From NCBI GenBank assembly GCA_945883815.1, contig CAMCYJ010000038.1, positions 1 through 32,589 of the forward strand: a stretch of 32,589 nucleotides of DNA, given 5' to 3'. Origin of the DNA: Akkermansia muciniphila. GTDB taxonomy: Bacteria > Verrucomicrobiota > Verrucomicrobiia > Limisphaerales > UBA9464. Below the pieces are notes generated by a model. The model saw only the letters and a program-made list of their open reading frames with translations. It made no database searches and was not told the DNA's origin. The position numbers were made by a program, and so were the translations under genes. Shown here piece by piece: positions 6,061 to 9,482 of the stretch. The stretch's first letter is position 1; each line of letters opens with the position of its first letter.

Positions 6061-6810
6061 TCAGGGCAAGATTAATTCGGCGGGCAGGCGGGCGATATGT
6101 TCTTCGGGCATTCGGGAGTCTTCGGACCCTGGAGCGGGGAGGGTTCCGGCGACATGGCCGTCAGCGAACCAGGTTTCAGCGCGGCGGGTGTGCCGGAAGT
6201 GGACGGTCGGTCCCTCGAGGTCGAAGTAGTAAAACTCTTCCAGCAACGGGTGGTCTGAAGACGCCGGGGGCTGGAAGTCGTTGATCTGAGCACAGTCGGC
6301 GAAAATCGCACACCCTGCGGGAGACCGCAGCGTGGCGATCGTGATCCCGGAAGAGCCCCGGGTGCCCACCCTCAGGTTGTAGCCGTAACCGTAGGCCGCT
6401 CCACGGGCCTTGGCCTTGAAGCGGGGATTCGCCCGGTTGAGGGCCGGGCAGACTTCGACACCGCGCGACTGGAGGTAGGGCCACAGGGCCCCGGTGGTCG
6501 GGTCGAATCGGCGTTGCCCTTCAGCACCATCTTCCAGCCACCCAAACCAGTAGCTCCATCCGTTGTTGGTGCGCACACCTCGTTCCAAAAACGCGATGCC
6601 TCCGTGTTCGTCCCAGTAGAGTTGGGTCGCCAGTCCCACTTGCCGGAGGTTGGAAGAGCAGACGGTTGCCCGGGCTGCCGCGCGTGATCGCACCAGGCTC
6701 GGCAGTGTGAGTGCCGCTAGAATGGCGATAATGGCGATCACCACCAGGAGTTCGACCAGCGTGAAGGCACGCTCCGGGCTCCGCATCGCCATGGGCCGAA
6801 TCCGTTTCAT
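6061..6810 (-). CDS. Pseudopilin-like protein with type IV pilin N-terminal methylation motif
   Basis: This is the last gene of the riboswitch-led operon. The N-terminus has a short basic leader ([15 protein letters not shown]), then [19 protein letters not shown] with Glu at mature position 5, the type III signal/prepilin-peptidase motif used by type IV pilins and type II secretion pseudopilins. The position before Phe is Ala instead of the usual Gly. The C-terminal two thirds is an H-X9-DG-type globular domain typical of the many Verrucomicrobia/Planctomycetes prepilin-like proteins, with a conserved FADGHV near the end. The 249 aa start at 6810 is supported by an ATGA overlap with the stop of the preceding gene (6807-6810), which implies translational coupling. 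It should be inner-membrane anchored with a periplasmic domain. Confidence 0.88.
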
Positions 6811-7799
6811 GGGCGAACGGCAACCACGCGGTAGAATTGTTCGGGTAACCACGCATCGCGCGGATCCCAAAGTTCGAGCTCGCCGGAGTTTGAAGCGAGT
6901 GTTTCAGCAACCCGGCTCCAGTCGGTGAGGTTGCTGGAGGCTTCCAAGGTGTAGCGCCATCCTGCCAACGCATTGAGCGCCACTCCGCCATCGCGTGCTC
7001 GGAGTTGCAGGGTTGCGGGCTCGGGCAGGGTGATCGTGACGTTGTCGATCCAGCCCTGGGCCAGCACGGAGCCTGCATAAAGCGGGTTCTGGCCGGCTGC
7101 GGAGTAGCTACTAATCGCGAAGGCATCGACCTGGAATCGCGTGAAATTGGCCGGCAACACGACGTCTGCAAGCTCAGGGCCGGGTTGGCCGTCGGTAGTC
7201 ATGGAGATGCGGGCCGTCCGAATTGTCGCCGTGTAGGCCAGTTGAAACCGGTAACGGCGACCGAGTTCGAGTGTCACATAACTGTCGGCATAACCCCAGG
7301 GCAGGCGGCCGTCGGATGGCACAATCACCGGAGACACCGACGAGGAAATGGCCCCAGATTCGCCAAACCAGGTCCACTCCACGGTGTTCTTGGGTCCGGG
7401 GAAGGAACCTCGGGAATAGTTTGTGGCGAGCACATCCGCCTGTCGGACCAAGCCTGCCGCGATCTGGAAGGATCCGGATTGTCCGGCAACCACACCCACG
7501 GCGTGGGATTCGAGGGTTAGATCGAAGGCGAAGCTGAAATCGTCGTGGGTGCCGAGTGTGGCTGGCAGAGGGAGTGCTAAAAAACTGTTCCGACGCGACG
7601 AGTCCCAGACCACCTCCATTCGCTGGCCCAAGGCGTCCCAGTGGAAGAGGGAGGAATCTCCCCAAGGACGCCACCCTCGCGCGGTTGGATCGGTGTCAAA
7701 GGACTCTTGAATAGTCGATCCCTGAGCCGAACTCACCAGGCACGCTGTCAGGCAAAAAGCCTGAGCAGCGTGTTTGCCTCGGTGAAGCGACGAGTTCAT
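6807..7799 (-). CDS. Secreted beta-sandwich protein with C-terminal Y..S.dL..W..FYRV module
   Basis: This 330 aa protein starts at the ATG at 7799, where a signal peptide begins ([20 protein letters not shown], then LVSSAQGS). The longer upstream reading has no signal-like N-terminus and would overlap the upstream gene. Residues 30-245 look all-beta and lectin/concanavalin-like ([54 protein letters not shown]). The last 60 residues ([17 protein letters not shown], then [11 protein letters not shown]) match a C-terminal module that also ends the large CotH-like protein in this window. No sorting tail, lipobox or catalytic motif is visible. It lies 28 bases after the CWC/DUF5522 gene and overlaps the pseudopilin gene by 4 bases, so the three are almost certainly co-transcribed. 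It is likely exported and may bind a ligand or polysaccharide; the function is unknown. Confidence 0.75.
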
Positions 7800-7827
7800 G
7801 GCGACGGAGAGGGTTCGGAAATTTCGA

Positions 7828-8181
7828 TCAGGTTTTGTCGCCGTAGGGACAGTGGCGGCAACCATTCCCACAACAATAGCCTCGGCGAAGATGGTAGGCA
7901 CGGGTGAAGACCATGAGTCCTTCCTCCGTGAAGTAGGTGTCTGGCTCTTCCGTCTCGGGTAGAGGTCCCCGGGCGGGGGGCTGGCATCCCGCGCACGCTT
8001 GGCAAAGGCAGGCTTTTTGTTGGAGATGCGGCGGAATGCGTTCCAACACCTCGGGTGAAATGGTCACGTCTTCGCACCAACACCGTTCCGGAAACGGATC
8101 GGCGCCTTCCGCTCGGCGGCAGGCATTGGCCTGACCGCAAAGCGGGCACTGGACTTCGGATACGGTGACAAGGCAGGCCAT
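7828..8181 (-). CDS. Cysteine-rich CWC plus DUF5522 two-domain protein
   Basis: This 117 aa soluble protein carries 14 Cys in two recognisable halves. Residues 10-66 fit the cysteine-rich CWC family ([15 protein letters not shown], then [13 protein letters not shown], then CLCQACAGC), a probable zinc- or metal-binding fold. Residues 80-115 fit DUF5522 ([20 protein letters not shown], then [12 protein letters not shown]), another Cys cluster. Both families are of unknown function and often occur as separate small proteins; here they are joined. The ATG at 8181 begins just before the first conserved strand and clears the upstream gene by 14 bases. It has no signal peptide and is probably cytoplasmic, which makes it the odd member of an operon otherwise encoding exported proteins. 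Confidence 0.85.
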
Positions 8182-8195
8182 TTCGATGGATTCCC

Positions 8196-9074
8196 TTAAT
8201 GAAGCGGTTGGAAAAACCTGCGCCAGACCCACAGCCCCGCCATTGCGGACGCCATCAACGCCCAAGTTTGTGGCTCAGGCACGGTGCTGACCATCGAAAG
8301 CCCGTCGATATCGGCCTTGCCGCTGAGTACCTCGATCCGAACGTAGGAGGCCTCGGTAAGTCCCGCAGGGTTACCTTTGGCATCCAGGGCCCAGGCCAAG
8401 TCGAAGCTGGTTCCTCCGGCCGAGCCTCGGTAGAGCTCGCGGATTTGATCCAGGGTCTTTCCAGAGAATTCAGCCGGCTGCAATGAGGTGCTCATTGGAA
8501 TTCCGAAGTCGCCCGATCCGTCGGTTGGATAATAGTGGTCCACCTTGGGTGATCGGGCTGCTTCCACTACGTACCAAGTTTTGCCATCGCTACTGACGCT
8601 GATCCGCTGGGTGCCCAGATTGGGGTTGAAGAGGGACCCGTCGGTGGCTGGCTTGCCAATGGGGTTCCAATTGGCATCGAAATCATTGGTCATGAGGAAC
8701 CCGGTGCTGCCGAACACTGTGAAATCCATCCCGTAGGGATTTTCTGGGGCGTCTTTAATTGGTGAATCCCAGCGCAGGGTCAGGGACCCGCCGGCACCGA
8801 TGCTGACCAGCTGGTCCGGGGTGTAGGGAGGGGAAAATGGATCTACGGGGCCACCGTATTGGCCGCTGGTGATGCGGCTGGGCATCCCGATCGCCGAAGT
8901 GGCGTTGGTATAACCCGCAGAGAATCCGGTTCCAGACCGGTAGTCCACCACAGAGGCGGGGTATTGGGCTTGGACTGAGAGGACTGCGCAGGCGGCGAGG
9001 ATCGTCTTCGGAGTGAAGCAATCCATCAGGGGACTGCTCGATTTGAGGGCACGGTATGTACGGTCGGTCTTCAT
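8196..9074 (-). CDS. PEP-CTERM surface protein, first gene of a B12-riboswitch operon
   Basis: This 292 aa exported protein has a signal peptide whose core is [17 protein letters not shown]. The C-terminus carries a full PEP-CTERM sorting tail: VPEP, then a hydrophobic segment ([14 protein letters not shown]), then a basic WRRFFQPLH. Such proteins are processed by exosortase and delivered to the cell surface. The body is all-beta-like with [29 protein letters not shown] and [21 protein letters not shown] recall similar proteins near vitamin B12 transport genes in PVC bacteria, but this is memory, not a search. Translation may begin at the ATG at 9074 or at the internal ATG at 9026; the latter puts the signal peptide at the very N-terminus. 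It is the first gene after the cobalamin riboswitch. Confidence 0.85.
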
Positions 9075-9170
9075 GGTCTCGGTTCACGGCAACGGCAGGC
9101 CTCGTTCAGGGGCTTGCCTGGGTTGTGTCAATGGAGACCAGGCCGGGGGACACGGAGTGCATGAGTGTCT

Positions 9171-9219
9171 GAAACACAAAACGCCTCCCATCCACCGGCA
9201 AAACAGGGAATGAAGGCGT
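9171..9219 (-). terminator. Terminator-like hairpin in the riboswitch leader (candidate attenuator)
   Basis: Read on the minus strand, bases 9219-9207 (ACGCCTTCATTCC) pair with 9193-9181 (GGATGGGAGGCGT) with two mismatches and one G-U, and TTTTGTGTTTC follows. It lies about 110 bases downstream of the cobalamin aptamer and about 100 bases before the first gene. This is the expected place and form for a riboswitch expression platform that ends transcription when cobalamin is bound. No antiterminator pairing was established. Confidence 0.5.
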
Positions 9220-9324
9220 CAGACATTCGGAATGTTTCCACCCCAGCATCAGGGCAGGGATGGTCTGGCCTCATCCTTCGCTTTGCGGCGAAGCGGTTGT
9301 GGCACAGAGCCGCAACCCGACGAG

Positions 9325-9482
9325 CACCTTTGGCGCAATATCCTGACTACAGGCTTCGAACCTCGCCCCCGCCTTCCCAGACTCGCGTCCAGTGACTGTC
9401 GTGTACGACTAGGGGGTTTGTTGCCTGATACAGTGGCGCAACCGTCGCCGATTCTCACGGCGTTCCTGCACTTCCAAAGATG
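9325..9482 (-). promoter_or_regulatory. Cobalamin (adenosylcobalamin-type) riboswitch
   Basis: Read on the minus strand from about 9480 down, the conserved elements of the cobalamin aptamer appear in order. CTTTGG (9479-9474) can pair with CCAAAG (9333-9328) as the closing stem. GCAGGAACGCCGTGAGAATC corresponds to the consensus G-G-A-A-x-x-x-G-G-T-G-x-G-A-A-T-C. GGCGACGGTTGCGCCACTGT gives the GCCACTG core (9437-9431). AGTCACTGG with the stem region after it is followed by AGTCAGGATATTGCGCC (9348-9332), the 3' B12 box. The aptamer leads into the minus-strand operon at 9074-6061. It also explains why the open frame running from 9232 into the Rieske gene is spurious. The remaining bases of this 601-base gap (9075-9170, 9220-9324, 9483-9675) hold leader hairpins and, presumably, divergent promoters. 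Confidence 0.92.

Follow-up and report, generated by a model that had tools for sequence, protein, structure and literature searches.

A cobalamin riboswitch precedes a conserved operon for a BtuH-like PEP-CTERM protein, a candidate surface cobamide-capture system, in the order Limisphaerales

Introduction

The exchange of vitamin B12 shapes microbial communities, and the well-studied route for its uptake across the outer membrane is BtuB with its helpers. Here we analyze a cobalamin riboswitch and the four-gene operon behind it, located on a contig of 32,589 nucleotides labelled Akkermansia muciniphila (CAMCYJ010000038.1, assembly GCA_945883815.1; lineage Limisphaerales; UBA9464, referred to below as the order and the family). 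This whole stretch of DNA is called the window, and it belongs to an assembly of 3.96 Mb in 189 contigs that is 90.9% complete.

The closest described systems come from the B12 uptake loci of Bacteroides. The BtuH2 protein of Bacteroides thetaiotaomicron binds B12, contacting cobalamin through Tyr510, Trp511, Trp577, His476, Asn399 and Gln333, and more than 80% of btuH homologues are held in btuB operons (PMC8941943, cited, as are the other papers here, for the available part of its text). The C-terminal extension of BtuG1 is itself a BtuH domain, homologous to the B12-binding BtuH2 (PMC10404256). Two further families bear on the comparison: DUF4465 (BtuJ), which comprises secreted B12-binding jelly rolls with one tested member from Haloferula (PMC13398666), and DUF71, for which a role in B12 salvage has been proposed (PMC3541065). 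A literature search with most subscription papers outside its scope returned no cobalamin riboswitch tied to a PEP-CTERM gene (one paper has both, with different genes), no paper with BtuH in Verrucomicrobia, and none combining PEP-CTERM, vitamin B12 and BtuB.

Results

We consider it fairly probable that the window carries a surface cobamide-capture operon of the BtuH type, switched on by B12 scarcity, which replaces a riboswitch-controlled TonB receptor. The elements of the locus, in the order of transcription, are as follows.

9315..9493, minus strand: cobalamin riboswitch aptamer RF00174 (cmscan, 58.9 bits, full-length model)
9179..9220, minus strand: terminator-like hairpin, putative expression platform (about -21 kcal/mol, T-rich tail to about 9170)
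8196..9074, minus strand: BtuH-like secreted protein with C-terminal PEP-CTERM, 292 amino acids (aa) (PF07589, PDB profile, fold search)
8217..8285, minus strand: PEP-CTERM sorting motif, residues 264-286 (PF07589 match)
7828..8265, minus strand: open reading frame (ORF) of the CWC/DUF5522 cysteine-rich protein, with an in-frame ATG at 8181 (PF14375, PF17653)
6807..7799, minus strand: secreted beta protein, 330 aa, ConA/legume-lectin-like fold plus C-terminal module (model, fold search)
6061..6810, minus strand: H-X9-DG/DUF1559-type pseudopilin, ATG at 6810 (PF07963, PF07596; H-X9-DG read by eye)

A first-pass annotation of this DNA had placed a cobalamin aptamer at 9325-9482 on the minus strand, which lies inside the only Rfam match over threshold in the window (E 2.4e-12, gathering threshold 31.5 bits, whole aptamer, model positions 1-189). 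It had also described a four-gene surface/secretion operon with neither a B12 transporter nor a corrinoid enzyme, and the ORFs and domains bear this out: the genes are separated by short gaps or overlap (by 4 nt, ATGA, between the beta and pilin genes), and a domain scan of the four found no transporter, TonB receptor, btuB, btuG, btuFCD or corrinoid enzyme. The CWC/DUF5522 protein reaches 53.4 bits for PF14375 and 72.8 bits for PF17653, each above its cut-off, and the PEP-CTERM protein 23.6 bits for PF07589 (cut-off 20.7). Pfam and NCBIfam name the PEP-CTERM end alone of the latter, and neither has anything over cut-off on the beta protein. The C-terminus of the PEP-CTERM protein qualifies as a sorting motif, with a terminal helix at residues 270-288 in the model, and a signal peptide was seen by eye; among its relatives PF07589 is matched in 32 of 56, many of them trimmed at the C-terminus, and an FYRV module replaces the PEP-CTERM end in some.

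About 95 nt downstream of the aptamer lies the hairpin (9220-9179), followed by a U-rich stretch. Of the 47 paired family loci, 27 were examined, and 26 of these carry its 5' arm, GCCTTCATTC; in 24 aligned loci 90% of the cells of its lower stem are paired, against 41-60% with one arm slid. Hairpins of -18 kcal/mol or better occur in 23 of the 27 loci, yet also in 17 of 108 shuffles. Both the sequence and the position of the family hairpin are conserved.

The pairing of riboswitch and operon is a family trait. RF00174 was found in 47 of 50 family genomes and the PEP-CTERM-type protein in 49 of 50 (in one by its C-terminal end alone), and the genome search for a riboswitch beside the operon, as proposed at the outset, succeeded: 47 of 52 family riboswitches, each from a different genome, lie 233-388 nt upstream of a same-strand match to the PEP-CTERM-type gene. 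No second RF00174 match was found when looked for in the source assembly (91% complete) and the pair recurs in 47 family genomes, so the pairing goes beyond chance; a single-genome accident was rejected because the pair recurs across both family and order genomes. The remaining five family riboswitches comprise four from one genus at about 110 bits, of which the one scanned (L080) precedes nrdB and nrdA, and a fifth of 32 bits near a contig end. Similar operons lacking the riboswitch, a possibility that the first-pass annotation had raised against its own proposal, proved rare: no riboswitch was detected in one of the 48 family genomes with the PEP-CTERM-type gene (G002) and in one of 17 distant loci (L142). 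The rest of the operon follows suit, with the beta protein in 35 of 36 family loci that have the PEP-CTERM-type gene (twice fused in one reading frame) and a pilin-cluster gene directly after it in 31 of 35; flanking gene clusters vary between genera. The CWC/DUF5522 gene was called separately in four family loci only, by a simple gene finder that also missed the window copy, and DUF5522 stands in frame ahead of the beta domain in the four longer ORFs scanned.

The operon extends well into the order, for which 245 genomes were used. RF00174 is found in 194 of them, the beta protein in 157 (at E 1e-20) and the PEP-CTERM-type profile matches in 118, of which 116 entered the pairing and receptor counts (G123 and G235, weak partial matches, were left out). 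We sorted the targets of the best-scoring 150 of the order's riboswitch matches. Operon proteins lie downstream of 107, 101 by coordinates and six by locus inspection (G187:C99 has the pilin only, and G090 a weak beta match with a pilin); among the 101 coordinate pairs the PEP-CTERM-type protein follows in 64 and the beta protein in 74. A TonB-dependent receptor lies downstream of 16, two of these (G096, G211) being partial ORFs with a TonB Plug domain; ribonucleotide reductase genes, some with metE, follow 23, bluB (TIGR02476, 281 bits) follows one, and three stand at contig ends. The ribonucleotide reductases, assigned mostly by BLAST to scanned examples, account for 19 of the 22 top-scoring riboswitches (16 class I, 3 class III) and four others. 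All best-scoring riboswitches with readable downstream sequence thus precede B12-related genes, TonB receptors or this operon. As a separate observation, the anaerobic class III NrdD stands behind a cobalamin riboswitch in L268 (1231-3447, plus strand), L270 (441-2765, plus) and L274 (663-2849, minus).

Further loci widen this picture. Another 20 were inspected, picked because their riboswitch had no PEP-CTERM-type match downstream. Twenty more distant loci were fetched and 17 scanned with Rfam, giving RF00174 in 15, RF01482 in L140 and no match in L142. A single protein combines the PEP-CTERM-type and beta domains in L140, L141 and L142, and the 700-aa forms of the PEP-CTERM-type protein have an extra N-terminal domain. 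The adenosylcobalamin-class aptamer RF01482 that takes the place of RF00174 in L140 (8879-9014, minus strand; family f2) is a lone case. In a search of named genomes, in which 80 of 166 relatives were kept, the labels were mostly Verrucomicrobia, Verrucomicrobiales and Pedosphaera, with several Akkermansia muciniphila and one Omnitrophota, and a same-strand beta protein was found in 77 of the 80 loci (not seen in L214, L216 and L224). The alignments covered 31 of 34 clustered PEP-CTERM-type proteins (A1), 27 of 35 beta proteins (A2), and 55 (A3) and 62 (A5) of the 80 named loci.

The PEP-CTERM protein had been put forward as a candidate cobalamin binder, and this idea gained ground, the BtuH domain being closest to it in the PDB by both profile and fold. 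A profile of 56 relatives searched against 177635 PDB sequences ranked BtuG1 first (8blw_B, E 1.6e-5), followed by BtuH2 (7biz_A, 0.064) and a next match at 0.3; a profile of 31 relatives placed BtuG1 at 0.0014. The AlphaFold model of the protein (predicted local distance difference test, pLDDT, 86.6), compared by Foldseek with 350,542 chains, gave 8blw_B at 1.9e-7, 7biz at 6.3e-5 and 1.4e-4, and the next match at 7.4e-4, with carbohydrate-binding and glycosidase modules making up most of the ranks from the fourth on. The BtuG1 segments matched (435-477 and 611-636) fall inside its C-terminal extension. From these profile and model comparisons, the PEP-CTERM protein is likely a cobalamin binder. 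A BtuG-type propeller in the long forms was considered and rejected (two scanned have no Pfam match, and L132 has no PDB match); in L132 (7030-9171, plus strand), one of these long forms, a weak match to the LIC_13355 lipoprotein NCBIfam model (E 5.9e-4, below cut-off) lies within the BtuH-like domain.

Operon proteins and a riboswitch-linked receptor were not seen together in any order genome. The former occur in 181 of the 245 genomes but in none of the 16 that have such a TonB receptor (Fisher 1e-10, uncorrected for kinship). TIGR01779, the BtuB model, gave nothing over its cut-off of 600 bits in either the 49 family or the 245 order genomes, the best family match being 133 bits; matches of at least 200 bits occur in 14 of the 245, and these 14 lack the beta protein (Fisher 2.9e-7) and the PEP-CTERM-type protein as well (3.5e-9 for the two taken together). 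The BtuB model found nothing in seven of the 49 family genomes; six of these seven have the PEP-CTERM gene, and five of the seven assemblies are less than 90% complete. Four full-length receptors were scanned with NCBIfam, and the B12 receptor model is the top match for those of L254 (308 bits) and L259 (242 bits).

The same neighbors recur on both sides of this divide. Downstream of the riboswitch, L247, L252 and L294 have the beta protein, DUF71 (PF01902), DUF6580 and a BtuF-like protein (PF01497), while L254 and L259 have a TonB receptor, a BtuF-like gene and DUF71, and L301 a TonB receptor, DUF6580 and DUF71; some of these genes also come after the TonB receptor in L302. The CWC domain forms the end of the BtuF-like protein in L252 (below cut-off) and stands alone after the TonB receptor in L246. 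Two fused ORFs were also noted: L251 (5968-6939, minus strand) joins a CWC cysteine-rich domain to a pseudopilin, the CWC preceding the pilin, and in L247 (2341-4320, minus strand) a BtuF-like domain (PF01497) and a pseudopilin (N_methyl, DUF1559) share one ORF within a riboswitch operon.

A need for external B12 is consistent with the gene content of the family. MetH passes its cut-off in 38 of the 49 family genomes, and the source genome has it at full length; CbiC is found in none of the 49 and CobS in one, against 7 and 10 of 14 control genomes. Because MetH is present, CbiC absent and CobS nearly absent, these bacteria probably import complete cobamides. For FecCD permeases, 45 of the 49 family genomes give weak, partial matches of 46 bits at best; these read as other ATP-binding cassette permeases, and absence of BtuC is not implied.

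For the beta protein (model pLDDT 89.9), a profile search of the PDB returned decaheme cytochromes plus one other protein, at E 0.2, and a later profile the decaheme cytochromes at 0.009. Its identity as a DUF4465/BtuJ homologue was rejected: at E 0.1 Pfam DUF4465 matches neither the 56 relatives of PEP-CTERM type nor the 63 of the beta protein, and it does not appear among the 50 fold matches listed.

Elsewhere in the window, a second prepilin-type protein (N_methyl; 12081-12899, plus strand) lies outside the operon and belongs to the same cluster as the operon pilin. An ORF of 285 aa at 18913-19770 (minus strand) carries a GTP_EFTU domain (PF00009) and presumably resembles release factor 3; the gene looks truncated, since the same frame past its end is closed by stops.

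Discussion

The mechanism that we favor would work as follows. When cobalamin is plentiful, the riboswitch, acting as an OFF switch, would end transcription at the hairpin, and when it is scarce the operon would be made. Once exported, the PEP-CTERM protein would be sorted to the cell surface and there bind cobamides through its BtuH-type domain, and the lectin-fold protein and pseudopilin may be partners in the same capture or uptake system. Such a system would occupy the position that a riboswitch-controlled TonB receptor holds in other members of the order. Of the ideas in the first-pass annotation, surface capture thereby gains considerable support; a pseudopilin acting as export machinery stays speculative.

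Several results weigh against this account. The resemblance to BtuH comes from profile and fold ranking and not from aligned BtuH2 contact residues; the profile match spans just two short stretches, is lost when the most divergent long forms are included, and is missed by a single-sequence PDB search, which gave one chance-level match (E 0.12). Template modelling (TM) scores to BtuH are low (0.37-0.38, root-mean-square deviation 10-15 A), and the likeness is therefore taken, at the level of sequence profiles and models, as distant homology or shared topology. The best fold matches of the beta protein are legume lectins (E about 1e-8). In the hairpin stem (24 loci) a single pair varies in both partners, and covariation scores no higher than in shuffles; because pairing is kept, covariation is slight and strong hairpins also arise by chance, we call the hairpin conserved and suggest that it may act as a terminator. 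The beta protein occurs without a PEP-CTERM-type match in 37 of the 101 coordinate pairs, so the PEP-CTERM-type protein is not universal. On the receptor side, the 16 receptor genomes span seven families, yet nine are of one genus; siderophore/heme models beat the B12 model for the receptors of L246 and L249 (family f26); 42 of the 49 family genomes have weak TonB-receptor matches; and where the best BtuB-model match is 140-175 bits, the beta protein coexists with it in 9 of 13 genomes.

The last two observations fit an auxiliary role, in which the proteins gather cobamide on the cell surface and pass it to a TonB-dependent receptor encoded elsewhere, with nothing replaced. BtuG and BtuH serve BtuB in this way in Bacteroides, according to the available text of PMC10404256, and the BtuH-like domain, found by profile and fold, suits this role as well. 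We hold it to be a real possibility that falls short of probable, and it overlaps with the capture part of our preferred account. Set against it are the family genomes, which never reach the BtuB cut-off, the order genomes with BtuB-like matches of at least 200 bits, none with operon proteins, and the six genomes that have the PEP-CTERM gene and no BtuB-model match (read with the incompleteness of five of the seven assemblies). At the other extreme stands an import route independent of BtuB, having displaced the riboswitch-linked TonB receptor in most of the order: BtuH-like capture, lectin-fold capture or both, together with a dedicated pseudopilin in a type II/IV-like machine, would carry or admit cobamide through the outer membrane. 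We regard this stronger proposal as rather doubtful.

Other readings shift the weight away from the BtuH-like domain or from uptake. The legume-lectin/ConA-like fold, the pilin next after the beta protein in most family loci, and the riboswitch-operon pairs with no PEP-CTERM-type match would suit adhesins that attach the cell to B12 producers or B12-rich particles under scarcity, with the PEP-CTERM protein as an accessory binder; since DUF71, DUF6580 and BtuF-like genes are found in the same operons as the beta protein and pilin, two proteins that genomes with a riboswitch-linked TonB receptor lack, we find attachment unlikely. A function unrelated to uptake but needed when B12 is short, such as surface remodelling, would parallel the B12-independent isozymes (class I and III ribonucleotide reductases, MetE) among the other riboswitch targets of the order, and seems very unlikely for an operon whose first gene is BtuH-like, which shares operons with BtuF-like and DUF71 genes and excludes riboswitch-linked TonB receptors. 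Just as improbable, in our view, is that the PEP-CTERM protein, as a common carbohydrate-binding jelly roll, resembles BtuH by accident: the carbohydrate-binding and glycosidase modules that dominate the lower fold ranks speak for it, but two methods applied to the same family both put BtuH structures first, and neither search drew on the cobalamin riboswitch that stands in front of the gene. These readings are not mutually exclusive, and our confidence in the preferred account overlaps with that in its rivals.

In a mostly uncultured order, then, most cobalamin riboswitches precede genes for BtuH-like, lectin-fold and pilin-like proteins and not a TonB receptor. If the preferred account of riboswitch-controlled surface capture is true, BtuH-type capture extends beyond lipoproteins, protein families without a function gain a testable one, and a route of B12 entry without BtuB becomes possible.

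Comparison with known systems

The operon pilin has the same N_methyl motif and DUF1559 start as DUF1559/H-X9-DG prepilin-type proteins at large, but its lineage, unlike theirs, is tied to cobalamin riboswitches. Like DUF4465 (BtuJ), the beta proteins of the operon are secreted and of beta type. The riboswitch-linked TonB receptors, some of them BtuB-like, occupy the same position behind the riboswitch, and some share its DUF71, DUF6580 and BtuF-like neighbors; they are nevertheless unrelated to the operon proteins, which have no plug or barrel. With BtuH2 and the H-domain of BtuG1 (7BIZ, 8BLW) the window protein has in common a secreted beta-rich domain of about 250 residues and a place in cobalamin-riboswitch loci. 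The differences are that Bacteroides BtuH is a lipoprotein where the window protein has a PEP-CTERM motif, that identity in the fold alignment is 14%, and that the window operon, unlike BtuH loci, has no btuB, btuG or btuFCD.

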